From Embleya scabrispora (GTDB lineage: Bacteria; Actinomycetota; Actinomycetes; Streptomycetales; Streptomycetaceae), in contig NZ_MWQN01000001.1 in the NCBI RefSeq assembly GCF_002024165.1, positions 5,518,001-5,582,000 on the forward strand: a DNA stretch of 64,000 nt, read 5' to 3'. Below, one piece after another: positions 2,833-11,636 of the stretch (position 1 is the stretch's first letter; every line of letters starts with the position of its first letter). The position numbers were made by a program, and so were the translations under genes. Below the pieces are notes generated by a model. It made no database searches, was not told where the DNA came from, and worked only from the letters and a program-made list of their open reading frames with translations.

Positions 2833-3828
2833 CTACAACACCGCGTCCGCCGCCGTCAGCGTGGCGCCCGCGCCGGGGACGTGGGTCAAACGCGTGGCGA
2901 AGGCCCGGTAGGCGGCGGCCAGTGCCTCGCTGGGGACGCGCCGGTGGCCCAGTACGTCGGCGAACCACCGGGTGAAATCCACGAACAGCGCGTCGTCGTC
3001 CAGGAACAGCGAGACGGCGAGCGTATCGACCGCACTGGCCAGGCCGTCGCGCATGGTGGTGTCCGAGCGTTCGCCCTCGATCGGGGCCAGGGCCGACATG
3101 CCCGCGGCGACCAGCGGGGTGCGCAGCAGGCCGACGCCGTCGTGGGCCGGGTCGGGCAGGTGGCGCAGGCGCGGGGCCGGCGTGGTGACGGTCGGCCAGT
3201 CGGGGCCGGTCAGCATCTCGGCGGCGCGTTCGGCGGTCGGCGCCCAGCCGTTCGCGCCGACGACGCCCGCCCAGCGGCCGTTCGGGCCGAAGCCGGGACC
3301 GCCGACCAGCACCGGCACCCCGACCCGGCGGGCCACCTCCACCATCGCCCGCGCACCCGGCAGCGCGGTGGAGACCGTACAGCTCAGCACCACCGAACCG
3401 GCACCCGAGTCGGGCACCACCCGGGCCAGTTCGCCCGCACCCGTACCCGGCGGCAACACCGTGGTGTCGATACCGCGCAGCCGCAACAGCGCGGCCAGGA
3501 TCCGGGACGCGAGCCCGTGCCAGTCGCCCTGCGCGCAGCACACCACGATGCGGGTCTGCGAGCGCGGGCGCGCCGTCGCGTCCGCGACCAGGTGCACCAC
3601 CCGCCCGGTGACGTGCGAGGCGGCGTGCTCGCGCGCCACCGTCCACTCGCCCGTCGCCCACCGCTCGCCCACCACGCGCAGCGCCGGGATCACCAGGTGG
3701 GTCAACACCTCCTCGCCCGGTACCCCCCTGCCCAGCAGGTTGCGGACCAGGTTCAGTGCCTCGACTTCGTCGGCCCGGCCCAAGTGTGCGAGGAACAGGT
3801 CGACTTCGTCGGAGACCACGTGCGTCAT
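2833..3828 (-). CDS. Cobalamin-binding protein with CarH-type photoreceptor motif
   Basis: 331 residues. The N-terminal four-helix B12-binding cap (about 1-85) contains W57-x9-E67-H68, the W-x9-EH pattern that in CarH photoreceptors contacts the adenosyl group of adenosylcobalamin. The Rossmann B12 domain (about 90-205) carries GDWHG, placing H104 as the probable lower axial ligand, followed by SVVLSCTVS and GGPGFGP. There is no MerR-type DNA-binding domain. Instead about 100 mostly helical C-terminal residues follow that I do not recognise. Its ATG overlaps the stop of the PP2C gene by 4 bases (ATGA, 3825-3828), so the two are translationally coupled. Inference: a light or B12 sensor feeding a phosphatase rather than DNA. 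Confidence 0.8.
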   Translation of the reverse strand: MTHVVSDEVDLFLAHLGRADEVEALNLVRNLLGRGVPGEEVLTHLVIPALRVVGERWATGEWTVAREHAASHVTGRVVHLVADATARPRSQTRIVVCCAQGDWHGLASRILAALLRLRGIDTTVLPPGTGAGELARVVPDSGAGSVVLSCTVSTALPGARAMVEVARRVGVPVLVGGPGFGPNGRWAGVVGANGWAPTAERAAEMLTGPDWPTVTTPAPRLRHLPDPAHDGVGLLRTPLVAAGMSALAPIEGERSDTTMRDGLASAVDTLAVSLFLDDDALFVDFTRWFADVLGHRRVPSEALAAAYRAFATRLTHVPGAGATLTAADAVL

Positions 3829-5555
3829 GCGCCGTCCGGATGCTCGTCGGGACCGGGACGACCGAGCTCGGCCAGGATCGGCAGCGCCTCGCGGTCGTCC
3901 CGATAGGGGATGTGAATGGCCAACAGCACCACGTCGTCGATCACCGGGGCGTCGCCGAGATGCTCCAGCAGCCGCTGTTCCAGGCGCTCCACCAGCGCCT
4001 CCACCGGCATGCCCGCGCACGAGGCCAGGTCGTGCCGCAACGCCTCCACCCCGTACGCCTCGCCGTCCGCGTCCCGCGCCTCGGTGACCCCGTCGCTGTA
4101 CAGGAGCAGGGTCGACCCGGCCGGCAGCGGCAGTTCCCGCTCGCCGAACACGGTGCCCGGGATGCCCGCCACCAGCGGATCGGTGAGCGCCATCGCGGTG
4201 ACCCGACCCGCCGGGTCCATCCACAGCGGCGGCGGATGCCCCGCGCAGGTCAGCCGGACCCGCGCGGAGCCGTCCGGATGCACCGAGCAGTCCCCGGTGA
4301 TCGCGGTCAGCACCAACGAGGGGTCGCCGAGGGTGAGTTCCGCGTCGAGCAGCGCCATCCGACGCGCGGGAGCGCAGCCCGCGCTCGCCGCCGTGCGCAG
4401 GATCAGCAGCGAGCGCGAACTGAACATGCCCACGGGCGTGCCGCGTCCGCACACGTCGCCGACGGAGAACGCCCACGTGCCGTCGACCGGAGTGGGATGC
4501 ACGGCGTAGAAGTCGCCGCCGAGACCGTTGGTCAACGACACCGGGCGGTAGCGGGCGGCGATCCGCGCGCCGGGCACCTCGGGCAGCGGGCCCGGGACGA
4601 GTGCCCGGGCGAGCAGCAGGGTGCGCCGGTCCTGTTCGACGTACAGCCGCGAGGTGCGCAGGGCCACGCCCACCCGTTCGGCGTAGTCCACCGCGAGTGC
4701 GATCTCCTCCTCGGCGAACGGCTCCGAGGTCGCCGAGCGCACGAACGTCAGTACGGACGGCGCGTCGTCGTCCGTGGGCACCGGGACCACGAGGGCGCAC
4801 CGCGCGTCGACGGCGAGCAGGTCCGCGACCGCCTCGTCCGGCACCAGTCGGCCGAGCAGTTCGCGATCCATCAGCGGATGCAGTTCCTGCCGGCGGGTGC
4901 GCAACACCCGGCCGACGCCCGCCGGGGCCGTCCACGCCGCGCCCAGGCCGGTGGTCACCCGGGCGATCGGGGCGCCGGTGGCGGGCGCGTAGGTGGTGCG
5001 CATCCGGCCGTCCTCCATGCTCGGCACGGACAGCGCGACCCAGTCGGCCAGTTCGGGCGCGGGCAGCGTGGTGACCAGATCGGTCAGCCGGCGCGGGTGG
5101 GTGGTCGCGGACAACACCCGGCCCGCCTCGGCGAGGAAGACCTTGCGCCGCCGCTCGGCCAACAGCGCGTCCTCGCGCCGCCGTTCGGCCGTGGTGTCGC
5201 GGACGTACCAGGCGTAGTGTCCATTGCTCAGCACCGCCCGGCGCCCGTGCACGCGGCGATCGTCGACCTCGCCCCGCCACGTGGTCCCGGTCGCGGGCAG
5301 GGTCGGGAAGGCGGTGCCCACGGCGCAGTCGGGCAACACCCGCCCCGCGGCGGGGTTGACGTGGCACACGGTGCCCTCGGGGGTGAACACGATCACGCCG
5401 GTGTCGCTCTCGTCGAGCACCTCGGCCGGCGACCAGCCGGGCGGCGCCGTCTCGTCGAGGGCGTGCGGCGGCTCGAAGCCGTCGGTCGGCCGAGAGGCGG
5501 CCGACTCCTGCGTGCTGTTGCCCCGCTCGTCACTCGAGGGGCGTGGTCCGGTCAT
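3825..5555 (-). CDS. PAS-GAF-PP2C (SpoIIE/RsbU-type) serine phosphatase
   Basis: 576 residues from the ATG at 5555; an in-frame GTG at 5621 is an alternative. Domains in order are PAS (about 45-125), GAF (about 130-300) and a SpoIIE-type PP2C phosphatase (about 320-545). The metal-binding acidic motifs LGGDFYAV, FSVGDVCGRG and the late DDVVLL are all present, so the enzyme looks active. The role by family is to dephosphorylate a STAS antagonist and release a sigma factor or other target. Its stop overlaps the start of the cobalamin-binding gene (ATGA), and STAS genes lie on both sides. No histidine-kinase-like anti-sigma domain is fused, unlike many Streptomyces paralogues. Confidence 0.9.
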   Translation of the reverse strand: MTGPRPSSDERGNSTQESAASRPTDGFEPPHALDETAPPGWSPAEVLDESDTGVIVFTPEGTVCHVNPAAGRVLPDCAVGTAFPTLPATGTTWRGEVDDRRVHGRRAVLSNGHYAWYVRDTTAERRREDALLAERRRKVFLAEAGRVLSATTHPRRLTDLVTTLPAPELADWVALSVPSMEDGRMRTTYAPATGAPIARVTTGLGAAWTAPAGVGRVLRTRRQELHPLMDRELLGRLVPDEAVADLLAVDARCALVVPVPTDDDAPSVLTFVRSATSEPFAEEEIALAVDYAERVGVALRTSRLYVEQDRRTLLLARALVPGPLPEVPGARIAARYRPVSLTNGLGGDFYAVHPTPVDGTWAFSVGDVCGRGTPVGMFSSRSLLILRTAASAGCAPARRMALLDAELTLGDPSLVLTAITGDCSVHPDGSARVRLTCAGHPPPLWMDPAGRVTAMALTDPLVAGIPGTVFGERELPLPAGSTLLLYSDGVTEARDADGEAYGVEALRHDLASCAGMPVEALVERLEQRLLEHLGDAPVIDDVVLLAIHIPYRDDREALPILAELGRPGPDEHPDGA

Positions 5556-5834
5556 GGCTACGGAATCCCTTGCGTCCGTGCGTTTCGAGCCGGCTCGCGC
5601 CGGCGCTCGCGCAACCTTCACGGTACGACCGCCGAGGTCGGCCGCGGGTGGCTTCCGACGGAATCACACCTATAGGGGAAGACGGTCCACGAGCGACCGA
5701 TCCGGCGAGTAGGGTGCCGATGCGGCCCTGCGTTCCGGGATGGATGTGTAGGTTCGTCCCGGGACGCGCGCATCGTAGCGAGCGGTCGCGTGCCGCGCGA
5801 CCGAACCGACACTCGACCGGGTGGAGTGGTCCCC

Positions 5835-6224
5835 ATGAGCATCGACGATCTCCCGCCGGACGACGTCGATCACACATCGTTCTCGGCCAGACCGTGCGTG
5901 GTGCACACGGCCCTGGAGGCCGATCTCGGCGGCATCGTGTCCGTGCACGGCGACATGGACATGACCGCGGCGCCGGCCTTCCGCCAGGCGGTGGACCGCC
6001 TCGTCGACGAGGGCGCGCGCAGCCTGCGGATCGACCTGTCGGGGGTGCCGTTCATCGACTCGTCGGGCCTGGGCAGCCTGGTCTACGGCTACCGCCGACT
6101 GCGCGACCGGGACGGGGACGTCGTGGTGTGCGGTGTCGGGCCGCAACCGGCGCGGGTGTTGCGAATCACCCATTTGGATCGGATCCTCAGCGTGGAACCG
6201 ACGGGTGTCCTCCGGAACCGGTGA
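5835..6224 (+). CDS. STAS-domain anti-sigma factor antagonist
   Basis: 129 residues. The motif FIDSSGLGSL (Ser76/Ser77) matches the phosphorylation site of SpoIIAA/RsbV proteins. The ATG at 5835 is preceded by GGAGTGG. It is transcribed divergently from the PP2C gene, with 279 bases between the two starts that must hold both promoters. With the STAS gene at 2411 it brackets the PP2C/cobalamin-protein pair. Whether one or both antagonists are substrates of that phosphatase is inference from position only. Confidence 0.88.
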   Translation: MSIDDLPPDDVDHTSFSARPCVVHTALEADLGGIVSVHGDMDMTAAPAFRQAVDRLVDEGARSLRIDLSGVPFIDSSGLGSLVYGYRRLRDRDGDVVVCGVGPQPARVLRITHLDRILSVEPTGVLRNR

Positions 6225-6303
6225 GCACCGAACACCGCTCGCGCTGTCCCCGCGCCCGTCCCACCCCGCGCGGTCCCCGCGCCCGTCCGCTCCGGCGGCG
6301 CAC

Positions 6304-7491
6304 TCACCGGCCCAGGCCGGCCTCCAACTCGCTCGCCGTGCGACTGCGGATCAGGTCGTTGACCGCCTCGCCCGGTCCGACCTGCTCGAACAGCGCCGGC
6401 GGCCGGAAGGTGACGTACATCGTGCGCCGCCCGCCCACCCCCGCGGGCGGCGGCGACGCGTGCAGTACGTCGGCCACGTGCACCGTCACATCGCCCGGCT
6501 CGGTGGGCACCGCGACATAGGGCAGGTTCGACAGCTCCTCCTGCGTCGGTTGCGGGCAGGTGCGCCCGTGCGAGCCCGGGATCGCCTCCAGGTAGCCGGT
6601 CTCGGCGCAGGAGCCGGTCAGTTGGATGCCGATCGCCACCGACGGACACATGATGTGGTGGCCGCCGAGACCGCAGTCGGTGTGCCACGGGATGTTGGCC
6701 AGGCCCTTGAGCCGACCGGCCGGCTTGAGCAGGACGGATACCCCCTCCATCCGGTCCATGGACGCGGCCAGGTCGTCGTGCAGCAGACCGGCCAGCCGGA
6801 CCAGGCGCGGATCGCGGGCCAACGCGCCGATCGGCGCGGAGCGTTCGCTCGCGTAGACGATCCGGCACAGCACCGCCTCGCCCGACTCGGTCTCCGCCCA
6901 CCAGGACCGGTCGTCGTCCGGCCGGGCCTCGGCGGCGAGCCGGTCCACCTCCGCGTTCAGGGCGGCGATCTCGGCGGCGGAGAACACCCCGCGCACCCGC
7001 ATCACCCCGGTCGCCTCGAAGTGTTCGGCGAGTTCCCGATCGGAGCGGTCGAGGGTGAGTTCGGCCGCCGGGTCCACCGGCGCGCCGTGCCGGTCGTACA
7101 GCTCCGGGCCCTCGGGCAGGTAGATCTCGATGCCCTGGTAGAGCGCCCGCAACGCCGGTTCCCAGCGGAACAGGTCGAGCACCGTGCCGCGTTCGGTGTG
7201 CACCTCGCCCGCGATGGCCAGCGCCGCGGCGGTGCGCAGCAGGGTGACCAGGTCGGTCCACGCGTCGGGGGACAGCCGCACCACGCAGCCGGCATCCGGG
7301 TCGATCCCCTCCACCACGCGCAGTCGGGAGTCCTGGGCGCGATAGGTCCACGCGCCGGTGCCGACTCGCAGACCGAGCGGGTCGAGCCCGGCGAGGCCCG
7401 CCTCGGCCCGTTTGCCGTGCGCGCCGATGAGCAATCCGGGGACGATGTCCCGGTGGTACGTTTCCGCGTCGATCCGGTCGTGCCCGAGCAT
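6304..7491 (-). CDS. Phytanoyl-CoA dioxygenase family protein with N-terminal extension
   Basis: 395 residues. The C-terminal half (about 150-370) has a PhyH-type cupin fold with the Fe(II)-binding triad H270-x-D272 (WHTD) and distal H344 (VADVLHAS); an Arg after GVGGR could bind 2-oxoglutarate. The first about 130 residues are not part of PhyH. The stretch from about 70 to 125, ending WEPALRALYQG, resembles SCP2-type sterol/lipid carrier domains, which would suit a lipid hydroxylase; that resemblance is weak and by eye. The gene stands alone. Two identical TGACGGTTCGTCAG sites lie 160-210 bases upstream of its start and may regulate it. Confidence 0.75.
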   Translation of the reverse strand: MLGHDRIDAETYHRDIVPGLLIGAHGKRAEAGLAGLDPLGLRVGTGAWTYRAQDSRLRVVEGIDPDAGCVVRLSPDAWTDLVTLLRTAAALAIAGEVHTERGTVLDLFRWEPALRALYQGIEIYLPEGPELYDRHGAPVDPAAELTLDRSDRELAEHFEATGVMRVRGVFSAAEIAALNAEVDRLAAEARPDDDRSWWAETESGEAVLCRIVYASERSAPIGALARDPRLVRLAGLLHDDLAASMDRMEGVSVLLKPAGRLKGLANIPWHTDCGLGGHHIMCPSVAIGIQLTGSCAETGYLEAIPGSHGRTCPQPTQEELSNLPYVAVPTEPGDVTVHVADVLHASPPPAGVGGRRTMYVTFRPPALFEQVGPGEAVNDLIRSRTASELEAGLGR

Positions 7492-7653: not shown

Positions 7654-7699
7654 TGACGGTTCGTCAGCTATTTTGGCCGGATCATTGACGGTTCGTCAG
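7654..7699. promoter_or_regulatory. Paired TGACGGTTCGTCAG operator-like sites
   Basis: Two exact 14-base copies, at 7654-7667 and 7686-7699, start 32 bases apart, about three helical turns. Each contains the palindrome TGACG-N3-CGTCA. They sit upstream of the PhyH-like gene (start 7491, minus strand), and the distal copy overlaps the stop codon of the GntR gene. A related site, TGACG-TTG-CGTCA, lies at 2116-2128. The cognate regulator is unknown. Confidence 0.5.
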
Positions 7700-8439
7700 T
7701 TCTCCGGGGAGGACGCGTCCTCGCGGACTCGGGACACCTGCGGGTAGGCGCGGCGCAGATGCGCGGCCACCGCACCGGCCGCGGCGCGCGGGTCGCGGGC
7801 CACGATCGCGGCCAGGATGGCCCGGTGGTCCGCGCGCAACGCGCCCGTGTCCGGCCCCAGTTCGGCCACCGCCCGGCGCTGGTGCCGGCGGACGGTGTCG
7901 CGCAGCGCGCGCATGAAGGTGGTCACCAGCGCGTTGCCCGACAACTCCGCGATCGTGGTGTGGAACTCGGTGTCCAGTTCGTTGAACCGGTCCGGGGACA
8001 GGTCCGGGTCGTCCATCGCGGCCACGATCGCACTCAGCCGGTCGAGGTCGGCCTCGCCCGCGTGCCGCGCCGCGCCCTCGACCGCCCACGACTCGATCAG
8101 CAGCCGGGCCTCGACCACGTCGTCCACGGCGAAGTTGGCCAGCCCCAGATGCAGCCGGAGTACGCCGGTCAGCGCGGGGCCCGCCGAGCCGGCCAGGACC
8201 GCCCCCGCCTCCGGGCCGCTGCCCGGGCTGGCCACCAGCACCCCCATGGCCTCCAGGACCCGCATCGCCTCGCGCACCGAGGGGCGGCTGACCCCGAGCG
8301 CGGCGGCCAACGCGCGCTCGCCCGGGAGCTTGTCGCCGGCCCGCAGTCGGCCGCTCGTGATCTGCTCCTCGATCTGCGCCACGACCTCCTCGAACGCGCG
8401 TACACGCTTGACCGGACGCCAGTCGGGGCCGTCTGTCAC
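7696..8439 (-). CDS. GntR/FadR-family regulator, likely of the lut operon
   Basis: 247 residues from the GTG at 8439, which has a GAGGAG ribosome-binding site; the frame is open further upstream without family character. The N-terminal winged helix (about 15-75) has the GntR signature LPGERALAAALGVSRPSVREAM. The C-terminal all-helical FCD domain includes FHTTIAELSGN and a DHRAILAAI motif typical of metal/ligand binding in LldR/FadR proteins. It is divergent from lutA, with a GntR-type palindrome between them. By family and position it is expected to repress lactate utilisation until L-lactate is present; that effector is inferred. Confidence 0.85.
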   Translation of the reverse strand: MTDGPDWRPVKRVRAFEEVVAQIEEQITSGRLRAGDKLPGERALAAALGVSRPSVREAMRVLEAMGVLVASPGSGPEAGAVLAGSAGPALTGVLRLHLGLANFAVDDVVEARLLIESWAVEGAARHAGEADLDRLSAIVAAMDDPDLSPDRFNELDTEFHTTIAELSGNALVTTFMRALRDTVRRHQRRAVAELGPDTGALRADHRAILAAIVARDPRAAAGAVAAHLRRAYPQVSRVREDASSPEN

Positions 8440-8530
8440 GGGGGCTCCTCGGATGCGGGCGTCGCGGATCGCGAATCGGGGGGTGTCTTGTGGCCAAGCA
8501 TGCCATGCCCTTAGCGTGAGCACACCACAG

Positions 8531-8575: not shown

Positions 8576-9307
8576 ATGCGCGTCGGGCTGTTCATCACCT
8601 GCGTCAACGACACGCTCTATCCCCGCACGGGACGGGCCGTCGTCCGCCTCCTGGAACGGCTCGGCTGCACCGTGGACTTCCCCACCGCGCAGACGTGCTG
8701 CGGCCAGATGCACTGGAACACCGGCTACGGCAAGCGGATCGAGCCGATGGTGGCCGGATTCGCGGACACCTTCGCCGGCTACGACGCGGTGGTCACCCCG
8801 TCCGGGTCCTGCGGCGCGATGATCCGGGACAACCACCCGCGCGCCGCCGCACGCGCGGCGGATCCGGGGTTGTCGGCCCGGGTCGCGGCGGTGGTGCCGA
8901 AGGTGTACGACCTCACCGAGTTCATCGTGGACGTGCTCGGCGTCACCGACGTCGGCGCCTACTTCCCGCACCGGGTCGTCTACCACCCCACCTGCCACTC
9001 CCGCCGCCTCCTGGGCCTGGGCGACCGGCCGACCGCGCTGCTTCGCGAGGTGCGCGGCCTGGAGCTGGTCGACCTGCCGGGCGAGGAGGAGTGCTGCGGC
9101 TTCGGCGGCACGTTCGCGGTGAAGAACCCGGACGTCTCCACCGCGATGGGCGCCGACAAGGTGCGGCACGCGGCCGGTACGGGGGCGGAGGTGCTGTGTG
9201 CGGCGGACAACTCGTGCCTGATGCACATCGGTGGGCTGATGGATCGTCAGCGGACCGGCATGCGCGTTGTGCACCTGGCGGAGATTCTCGCCTCGACGGC
9301 GGGTTAG
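8576..9307 (+). CDS. lutA: L-lactate oxidation Fe-S protein LutA
   Basis: 243 residues with two CCG-type cysteine domains (CCGQMHW near residue 41 and ECCGFGG near residue 174) that ligate an iron-sulfur or related cluster. By family it is the LutA/LldE subunit of the LutABC complex, which oxidises L-lactate to pyruvate in the cytoplasm. The ATG at 8576 follows a strong GAGGAGG. It is first in lutA-lutB-lutC; the gap of 128 bases to lutB is larger than usual and contains a hairpin (9362-9397). Confidence 0.9.
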   Translation: MRVGLFITCVNDTLYPRTGRAVVRLLERLGCTVDFPTAQTCCGQMHWNTGYGKRIEPMVAGFADTFAGYDAVVTPSGSCGAMIRDNHPRAAARAADPGLSARVAAVVPKVYDLTEFIVDVLGVTDVGAYFPHRVVYHPTCHSRRLLGLGDRPTALLREVRGLELVDLPGEEECCGFGGTFAVKNPDVSTAMGADKVRHAAGTGAEVLCAADNSCLMHIGGLMDRQRTGMRVVHLAEILASTAG

Positions 9308-9361
9308 GGGGTTGGTGTACCCGCCCGCTCCACCCGTTGCCGCCTCCGTATCGGCTGCGGA

Positions 9362-9397
9362 CTCACAGGCGGCGGTGTGGCCCCTCCGGCCTGTGAG
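9362..9397. other. Hairpin between lutA and lutB
   Basis: CTCACAGGC (9362-9370) pairs with GCCTGTGAG (9389-9397) over an 18-base loop. No T-run follows. It may set the ratio of LutA to LutB messages or be a processing site; it does not look like a full terminator. Confidence 0.35.
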
Positions 9398-9435
9398 CCG
9401 ACCTGCCTCGACCCGTTGATCGGAAAGCTTTCGCC

Positions 9436-10944
9436 ATGACCTCACCGCCCACGTTCCTGGGTATGCCGCCGTTTCCCGAGGCCGCTCGATCGGCCGTTTC
9501 GAATCCCCAGCTTCGCCATAATCTGCGTAAGGCAACCCATACCATCCGGGACAAACGTGCCCATGTGGTCGGCGAGCTTTCCGACTGGGCCGAGTTGCGA
9601 GCCGCCGGGGCGGCGATCAAGGACCGGACGTTGCGTCGGCTCGACGAGTACCTGCTCGCCGCCGAGGCGGCCGTCGCCGCCGCCGGCGGCACCGTGCACT
9701 GGGCGGCGGACGCGGCGGAGGCGAATCGCATCGTCGCCGATCTGGTGCGGGCCACCGGGGAGACCGAGGTGGTCAAGGTCAAGTCGATGGTCACCCAGGA
9801 GATCGGGCTGAACGAGGCGCTGGCCGCCGAGGGGATTCGGGCCTACGAGACCGATCTGGCCGAGTTGATCGTGCAGTTGGGCGACGATCTGCCGTCGCAC
9901 ATCCTGGTGCCGGCCATCCACCGCAACCGGGCCGAGATCCGGGAGATCTTCGTCCGGGAGATGGCCGAGTGGGGGGTGCCGGCGCCGCCCGGGCTGAGCG
10001 ACGAGCCGGCCGCGCTGGCCGAGGCCGCGCGACGACACCTGCGGGAGCGCTTCCTGTCCGCGAAGGTCGCGGTGTCCGGGGCGAACTTCCTGGTCGCCGA
10101 GACCGGCACGCTGGTCGTGGTCGAGTCGGAGGGCAACGGGCGGATGTGTCTGACCCTGCCCGAGACGCTGATCTCGGTGGTCGGCATCGAGAAGGTGGTG
10201 CCGACCTGGGCCGATCTGGAGGTGTTCCTGCAACTGCTGCCCAGGAGTTCGACCGGGGAGCGGATGAACCCGTACACCTCGATGTGGACCGGCGTCACCC
10301 CCGGCGACGGCCCGCGGGACTTCCACCTGGTGCTGCTCGACAACGGCCGTACCGACGTGCTGGCCGACACCACCGGGCGACAGGCGCTGCGCTGCATCCG
10401 GTGTTCGGCCTGCCTGAACGTGTGTCCGGTGTACGAGCGCACCGGGGGCCACGCGTACGGGTCGGTGTACCCGGGGCCGATCGGCGCGATCCTGGTGCCG
10501 CAACTGCGGGGCGTGGCAACCGGGAAGGTGGACCCGCAGACCGCGTCGTTGCCCTACGCGTCGTCGTTGTGCGGTGCGTGCTACGAGGTGTGCCCGGTCG
10601 CCATCGACATCCCCGAGGTGCTGGTGCACCTGCGCGAACAGGTGGTCGAGGGCGGCGGTCATCGGGCCGAGCGGGCGGCGATGCGGGCGGCCGAGTGGGT
10701 GTTCGACGACGCGAAGCGGCTGCGCACGGTACAGCGGGTCGCGGCCCGCTCGCGTCGGCTGCTGCCCCGCCGCGCGCCCGGGCCCGGTGCGGCCTGGTCG
10801 GACAGCCGGGCCCTGCCGGAGGTGCCGGCGCAGTCCTTCCGCGACTGGTGGGTGCGCGAACGCGGCGCGCCGCCGGCGCGACCCCCGGCTGCTCCGGCAC
10901 AACCGCCGGTGGAGAAGAACCGGATCGAGGAGGACGACCGATGA
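9436..10944 (+). CDS. lutB: L-lactate oxidation iron-sulfur protein LutB
   Basis: 502 residues, usual for LutB/LldF. The N-terminal LUD domain (about 60-300) is followed by two 4Fe-4S motifs, CIRCSACLNVCPVY (about 319-332) and CGACYEVCPVAID (about 379-391), then a Pro/Arg-rich tail. It is thought to pass electrons from lactate within LutABC. The ATG at 9436 has GGAAAG upstream. Its TGA overlaps the ATG of lutC (ATGA, 10941-10944), showing translational coupling. Confidence 0.92.
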   Translation: MTSPPTFLGMPPFPEAARSAVSNPQLRHNLRKATHTIRDKRAHVVGELSDWAELRAAGAAIKDRTLRRLDEYLLAAEAAVAAAGGTVHWAADAAEANRIVADLVRATGETEVVKVKSMVTQEIGLNEALAAEGIRAYETDLAELIVQLGDDLPSHILVPAIHRNRAEIREIFVREMAEWGVPAPPGLSDEPAALAEAARRHLRERFLSAKVAVSGANFLVAETGTLVVVESEGNGRMCLTLPETLISVVGIEKVVPTWADLEVFLQLLPRSSTGERMNPYTSMWTGVTPGDGPRDFHLVLLDNGRTDVLADTTGRQALRCIRCSACLNVCPVYERTGGHAYGSVYPGPIGAILVPQLRGVATGKVDPQTASLPYASSLCGACYEVCPVAIDIPEVLVHLREQVVEGGGHRAERAAMRAAEWVFDDAKRLRTVQRVAARSRRLLPRRAPGPGAAWSDSRALPEVPAQSFRDWWVRERGAPPARPPAAPAQPPVEKNRIEEDDR

Positions 10945-11636
10945 GTTCGCGTGCAGCGATCCTGGCCCGGGTCCGCCGGGCGCTCGCCGACGTGCCGAGC
11001 GACGACGACTTCCCGGTCGCGCGCGACTACGCACGGGCGCATGTCGCCGAGGGTGTGCTCGAACTGTTCGTCGCGCACCTGCGCGACTATCGGGCCGTGG
11101 TGCACGAGGTCGCCGAGGACGCCCTCCCGGACGCGGTCGCCGCGGCGGTTGAGCGGCGCGGGGCCCGCACCGTGGTGACCCCGGCCGGGCTGCCGCCGGC
11201 GTGGACGGCCGGGCTCGCCGAGGGGGTGTGCCTGGCGGACGGCTGGGCGTACGAGCAGTTGTACGACAATAGTATTAATAACAGGCCTACGGTTGCCGAC
11301 CGTGCCGACCGTGCCGACATCCTGACCACGTCCACCCTCGACACCGCCGACGGCGTACTCACCGCCGCCGCCGTCGGCATCGCCGAAACCGGCACGATCG
11401 TGCTCGACGCCGGACCCGGCCAGGGCCGTCGGGCGCTGACCCTGGTGCCGGACTGGCACCTGTGTGTGATGCGCGCCGCCGACGTGGTCGCCTCGGTGCC
11501 GCAGGCGCTGGAGCGACTCGACCCCGGTCGACCGCTGACCTGGATCTCCGGGCCGTCCGCGACCAGTGACATCGAGCTGGATCGGGTCGAGGGGGTGCAC
11601 GGGCCCCGCACCCTCGAAGTGCTGATCGTGCGGTGA
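10941..11636 (+). CDS. lutC: L-lactate oxidation protein LutC (LUD domain)
   Basis: 231 residues of LUD domain with the family motifs VGIAETGTIVLD and GPSATSDIE near the C-terminus. It completes lutABC. Unusual for this DNA, codons 110-114 are AAT AGT ATT AAT AAC (11268-11282), followed by a tandem 9-base repeat encoding RADRADRAD-like sequence (about 11292-11320). This 20-residue segment sits where LutC proteins normally have a short linker, so it looks like a small insertion that kept the frame. Function is probably intact since the motifs on both sides are preserved. Confidence 0.88.
   Translation: MSSRAAILARVRRALADVPSDDDFPVARDYARAHVAEGVLELFVAHLRDYRAVVHEVAEDALPDAVAAAVERRGARTVVTPAGLPPAWTAGLAEGVCLADGWAYEQLYDNSINNRPTVADRADRADILTTSTLDTADGVLTAAAVGIAETGTIVLDAGPGQGRRALTLVPDWHLCVMRAADVVASVPQALERLDPGRPLTWISGPSATSDIELDRVEGVHGPRTLEVLIVR

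Follow-up and report, generated by a model that had tools for sequence, protein, structure and literature searches.

The window, by which we mean the whole 64,000-nucleotide stretch of DNA analysed from Embleya, a soil actinomycete, lies in a genome of 10.96 Mb and carries on its minus strand a pair of overlapping genes. The first, at 2833-3828, encodes a photocobilin-like protein of 331 residues, assigned from Pfam, a phmmer alignment to 8j2w and a conserved start; the second, at 3825-5555 on the minus strand and directly upstream, encodes a SpoIIE-type PP2C phosphatase of 576 residues with weak PAS and GAF regions, assigned from Pfam, with its start and the Asp residues of its metal motifs kept. 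Start and stop codons of the two genes overlap in the sequence ATGA (3825-3828, minus strand), as the original prediction had it, an arrangement that suggests translational coupling. The B12 protein has its closest named relatives in Embleya hyalina (97% identity), Embleya scabrispora (82%) and Streptomyces sp. SID3343 (71%); by genome classification all three belong to the genus of the window, and together with the window they are referred to here as the Embleya copies. The start positions of both the photocobilin and the PP2C are identical in the alignment of these four (4/4 copies). Pfam also bears out the predicted STAS genes on both sides of the pair, each a probable coding sequence on the plus strand: one at 2411-2791, convergent with the photocobilin gene and containing a DSTG motif, and one at 5835-6224, divergent from the PP2C gene and containing a DSSG motif. 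We presume these motifs to be candidate phosphorylation sites by analogy with SpoIIAA-type STAS proteins. Farther along the window, translations judged by eye include a GntR-like regulator (7696-8523) adjoining genes that resemble a lactate-utilisation cluster with Fe-S proteins (8576-11636). A PADLOC search with the cobalamin protein and the PP2C gave no match for either.

The cobalamin protein contains the Pfam domains B12-binding_2 (PF02607; 43.8 bits, cut-off 23) and B12-binding (PF02310; 47.1 bits, cut-off 32.1), and its Pfam results include no MerR domain, as was expected of it. In a sequence search of solved structures, residues 12-315 match the photocobilin SasPcob (8j2w/8j2x) with an E-value of ~1e-57, and AbPcob (8j2y) follows at 2.5e-41; the best chain named CarH is matched at 2.1e-14, over residues 38-184 only. 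The layout comprises a four-helix B12 part (~13-78), a Rossmann part (~93-201) and a globin part extending to ~315. Since the SasPcob match covers residues 12-315, the helical C-terminus, which had been described as unrecognised, is the globin (biliverdin) domain of the solved photocobilins; the fusion of this globin domain to the B12 domain is seen in the phmmer alignment of 12-315 to 8j2w, that is, at the level of sequence. W57, E67-H68 and H104 are present where they had been predicted and align with SasPcob W61, E71-H72 and H108; the alignment to H108 makes H104, encoded within the D102-W103-H104 codons at 3517-3525 (minus strand), the predicted lower axial ligand. By itself, the bare W-x9-EH motif carries little weight, because it arises in 193 of 20,000 shuffles of the cobalamin protein and occurs three times in the six-frame ORFs of the window (97,443 aa), the cobalamin protein included; judged from the alignments, full-length homology is what decides for a photocobilin. 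The protein scores 67.6 bits against the NCBIfam CarH model, far from its cut-off of 400, and a reading as an orphan CarH was rejected because SasPcob matches over nearly the full length. What stands of the proposed CarH-like B12 light module with a PP2C output is thus the homology and the conserved gene order, but the module is a full-length photocobilin homologue and not an orphan CarH domain. AF2 models built from an alignment of the window and L004-L006 were poor (mean pLDDT 50.7, for the photocobilin, and 38.6), and no conclusion rests on them.

Photocobilins are reported to sense both adenosylcobalamin (AdoCbl) and biliverdin (BV), and SasPcob is described as a dimer in the dark and a monomer in the light (PMC10979010). 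That paper further reports that a photocobilin controls an enzyme by light both in fusion and in trans, that in vitro a stand-alone photocobilin altered the activity of an enzyme domain separate from it, and that what stand-alone photocobilins do is understood less clearly than the role of the fused ones. The enzyme next to the Embleya photocobilin has a SpoIIE domain (PF07228) at 126.3 bits in Pfam (cut-off 25), so the PP2C part of the PAS-GAF-PP2C architecture first proposed is secure, but its PAS (E 0.21) and GAF (E 0.12) matches fall below cut-off; GAF (PF01590) is above cut-off in 6 of 10 hand-picked upstream PP2Cs of other loci. The metal motifs GGDF, GDV, SDG and DD are present, and their Asp positions are kept in 70/70 aligned upstream PP2Cs, the window included. 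In a tree of SpoIIE domains (70 upstream and 15 other PP2Cs) the four Embleya PP2Cs are long-branched and fall together with two PP2Cs lacking a photocobilin link (95*, flagged as a possible long-branch artefact and unreliable), from which the Embleya PP2C may not share descent with the other upstream PP2Cs. The label "upstream PP2C" takes 4 changes on this tree, compared with a shuffled mean of 14.0, and 3 of the 4 are forced by starred branches.

A search of genomes for the B12-domain/PP2C/STAS neighbourhood had been suggested as a check, and the pairing is indeed common. Homologues at E 1e-20 or better occur in 111 of 297 genomes from the family and 61 of 394 from the class; from these we took 80 stretches, 66 of them holding all 68 class-list matches besides the window gene, plus the best 14 remaining of the family list. 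With the window included, jackhmmer found 85 photocobilin ORFs, of which a short weak match (L101) was dropped by the E-value/length filter to leave 84 rows. In one stretch (L124, ~5595-6600) the photocobilin gene is split between two frames, by a frameshift or an assembly error, and the PP2C and STAS genes remain; its two halves are left out of later counts, giving 82 rows. In 70 of these 82 the photocobilin is immediately preceded, on its own strand, by a SpoIIE/PP2C ORF; the class list alone has 56 such rows out of 67, across 10 family codes. The in-frame start nearest the PP2C stop allows a start-stop overlap or abutment in 60 of the 70 PP2C-linked rows, a choice of start that biases the figure towards overlap. 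The genome as a whole has 36 SpoIIE and 20 STAS matches in its 10.96 Mb, so the PP2C linkage is far from chance; common ancestry of an operon contributes to it as well. Distances among photocobilins and among their upstream PP2Cs are strongly correlated (Mantel r 0.91, n=70; highest of 1000 permutations 0.35), and since this test has no species-tree control the correlation alone does not show interaction. Among the stretches taken, five genomes have two PP2C-linked operons, whose paralogous photocobilins, and likewise PP2Cs, are 31-44% identical; for every one of these operons the nearest photocobilin and the nearest PP2C are found in other genomes and not in the paralogous operon. The least clear case is G477, where the paralogous PP2C is third-nearest to the PP2C of L073. 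Two stretches (L079, L081) have two tandem photocobilin genes behind one PP2C, followed by a STAS gene, i.e. one PP2C with two sensors.

The Embleya version retains the four key residues of the B12 site. The W61/E71/H72/H108 set (SasPcob numbering) is intact in 80 of the 82 rows, including 4/4 Embleya copies, and the window protein has the elements GxxW (GERW), EH (E67-H68) and GxxH (GDWH) of the light-responsive cobalamin-domain signature given for SignatureFinder as GxxW, EH, GxxH and GxxxP (PMC11796333). The last element reads PPGTG in 4/4 Embleya copies, and the window protein is therefore not filed under that signature. In CtMerR the Pro of GxxxP is reported to contact the adenosyl group of the neighbouring monomer (PMC11796333), and its loss could weaken adenosyl binding too; the equivalent P134 is also missing in 13 of 80 non-Embleya rows (the two L124 halves included), most of which keep the W/E/H/H set.

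The biliverdin site differs from that of SasPcob at His137 and in the Asp270 segment. In SasPcob, Asp270 is described as a key BV contact and H137 as a putative salt-bridge partner of the BV of the other monomer (PMC10979010). The place of His137 is taken by Glu (E133) in 4/4 Embleya copies, and the segment of D270 reads T-x-R-D-G-L in all four. Both MAFFT and the family HMM set G262, not D261, at D270; as an alternative placement D261 may occupy D270 with G262 inserted, and in the MAFFT alignment no row but the four of Embleya has an added residue here. Counted from the N-terminal side, D261 preserves the T-x-x-D spacing; W288 (SasPcob W296) is retained. AbPcob, with His at the D270 place, is reported to bind BV poorly, and as described it is without both Asp270 and His137, so neither residue strictly defines a photocobilin (PMC10979010). 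Because its biliverdin contacts are altered, the Embleya version probably responds through B12 alone; in other words, its residues point to a photocobilin descendant that probably senses mainly or only through B12. Heme oxygenase is encoded in 4/4 genomes of the genus, so BV supply is not the reason for the change. The altered version is found in all four genomes examined for the genus, and comparison of the four copies gives a photocobilin dN/dS of 0.13-0.36 and a PP2C dN/dS of 0.14-0.29: both genes are under purifying selection and not decaying.

Changes at the biliverdin site extend beyond Embleya. D270 is Asp in 61 of the 82 rows and absent in the other 21. Nineteen of these retain the full four-residue B12 set and 17 are PP2C-linked; on the tree the fewest changes are 7 for D270 and 8 for H137, and an independent-pairs test of the one against the other had 4 pairs only. 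A starred clade of seven rows (L099, L107, L108, L110, L113, L116, L119), all PP2C-linked, carries Arg at position 137, lacks Asp at position 270 and is, by its residues, another lineage with an altered bilin site. Outside the genus, the tree places L067 and L068 nearest, and the bilin site is canonical in both. The PP2C-linked photocobilin of L118 (~5986-6981) has Arg at both W61 and H108 and is possibly cobalamin-blind.

In partner switching, a STAS protein with a phosphorylatable Ser/Thr is the substrate of the phosphatase and acts with an anti-sigma kinase. A STAS gene lies within 300 nt of the downstream end of the photocobilin in 42 of 82 rows, on the same strand in 39; the three on the opposite strand are those of the window, L131 and L132, and in the fourth Embleya copy the contig stops here. 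The Embleya STAS genes are on the opposite strand and outside the operon. A same-strand downstream STAS gene is found in 38 of 61 rows with D270 vs 1 of 21 without it, in a comparison uncontrolled for relatedness. A STAS tree, built on too few columns, showed only that the closest STAS proteins from beyond the genus reach 37% identity at most, the usual downstream STAS being no nearer than others. No anti-sigma kinase gene adjoins the photocobilin-PP2C pair of the window. Within the stretches taken, a HATPase-like ORF occurs in 23 of 84 rows, and the genome has 76 HATPase_c_2 matches, 59 of them over cut-off, which probably include two-component sensor kinases.

A second photocobilin is present in two of the four Embleya genomes, that of the window among them. 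This copy (L111) has canonical D270, H137 and GxxxP, a PP2C upstream without overlap, and a STAS gene downstream on the same strand; a HATPase-like ORF lies ~3 kb upstream of it and a second SpoIIE gene ~2 kb downstream. The window genome is a natural pair, with one canonical operon and one whose bilin site is altered, and a comparison of the two would reveal the contribution of the second chromophore and whether this is a route by which light acts on sigma-factor control in actinomycetes.

Alongside the observed homology, retained motifs, gene overlap, conserved pairing and purifying selection, the reading that we favour, and consider somewhat better than an even bet, is that the SpoIIE-type PP2C has a dedicated partner in the protein of the overlapping gene, a stand-alone photocobilin homologue that exerts B12-based control over the action of the PP2C on STAS proteins. 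For the Embleya photocobilin, then, we infer chromophore binding, a light response and control of the phosphatase. By analogy with SasPcob, AdoCbl would hold a photocobilin dimer together in the dark through W57 and E67-H68, and light would break the Co-C bond and open the dimer to monomers. One of these states would change the activity of the PP2C by binding it at the N-terminal region or the linker, much as RsbT acts on RsbU; PMC12143880 reports a partner protein that activates the PP2C RsbU through its linker and a predicted RsbP/RsbQ complex. The PP2C would dephosphorylate one or both flanking STAS proteins, and dephosphorylated STAS would capture an anti-sigma kinase encoded elsewhere, as expected from partner switching in general. 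The Embleya version would respond via B12 alone, to green light or to AdoCbl status, and not across the visible range. We advance more tentatively, at rather less than even chance, a fuller version in which the Embleya photocobilin gave up bilin and became a B12-only sensor for the PP2C, its globin domain serving for docking or relay and no longer as a pigment site, and switches two STAS proteins outside the canonical operon, with the bilin site having changed repeatedly among PP2C-linked photocobilins while the B12 switch was kept.

These proposals have to be weighed against others. The Embleya protein could be an ordinary dual-chromophore photocobilin in which D261 replaces Asp270, biliverdin binds, and both green and red light are sensed: the T-x-x-D spacing, the retained W288, the heme oxygenase genes of the genus and the canonical site in L067 and L068 all agree with this, but two alignment methods set G262 at D270, His137 is Glu in every Embleya copy, and poor BV binding is reported for AbPcob, which has His at the D270 place (PMC10979010); we regard it as unlikely. 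Somewhat less likely still is a loss of light sensing altogether, with the photocobilin reporting AdoCbl (B12) status or acting only as a structural partner of the PP2C. The PPGTG sequence, at a motif whose Pro touches the neighbour's adenosyl group in CtMerR, and the two Arg substitutions in PP2C-linked L118 would suit such a loss; the intact W, E, H, H set in 4/4 Embleya copies speaks against it, as do the other rows that have lost P134 and mostly keep the set.

It is finally conceivable, though very improbable, that the two genes are mere neighbours and that the photocobilin acts elsewhere, for example on a diguanylate cyclase, given that known photocobilins can regulate a GGDEF enzyme (PMC10979010) and that 12 of 82 rows have no PP2C directly upstream. 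Two of these 12 are, however, the second copies of tandem pairs behind a PP2C, and one (L109) stands at a contig start; the upstream PP2C in the other 70 rows, across 10 family codes of the class, and the way in which paralogous operons keep their own partner type also oppose it. With a dedicated PP2C partner as the favoured reading, the 70 of 82 rows with a PP2C directly upstream name an enzyme to assay for stand-alone photocobilins.

In the literature searched we found no report of a bilin-site change in a PP2C-linked photocobilin clade and nothing on an Embleya photoreceptor, and among the titles and abstract openings searched no other paper suggests that a B12 domain is paired with a PP2C. 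We make no claim of novelty for the photocobilin-PP2C gene pairing itself, since phosphatase neighbourhoods may be described already, possibly in the photoglobin paper of Schneider (2022). The PP2C pairing is common in relatives, and the unusual part is the altered pigment site of the Embleya version.

The photocobilin-PP2C idea is already in print as a prediction: SasPcob, from Saccharothrix syringae, is predicted in PMC10979010 to interact potentially with STAS, SpoIIE and PP2C-like proteins, so that this predicted association is itself a likeness to the window. SasPcob (PDB 8J2W, 8J2X; PMC10979010) is like the window protein in domain order, in homology over the full length and in being a stand-alone protein, and its W61, E71-H72, H108 and W296 have equivalents there; the Embleya clade differs from it at the GxxxP loop, at His137 and in the Asp270 segment, and the STAS genes beside its gene pair run on the opposite strand. 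The photocobilin-diguanylate cyclase fusion AbDPcob (domain structure PDB 8J2Y) shares the B12 domain and globin and is likewise without Asp270 (His), but it is fused to GGDEF, whereas the likely output enzyme in Embleya is a separate PP2C. The CarH repressor has the same light-type B12 domain with W-x9-EH and an axial His; unlike CarH, the window protein has no MerR domain and has a globin domain instead. The B. subtilis systems RsbU/RsbT and RsbP/RsbQ, as described in PMC12143880, also combine a PP2C bearing an N-terminal sensor region with a separate partner and an expected STAS substrate, but in Embleya the presumed partner and regulator is a photocobilin homologue and not RsbT or RsbQ.
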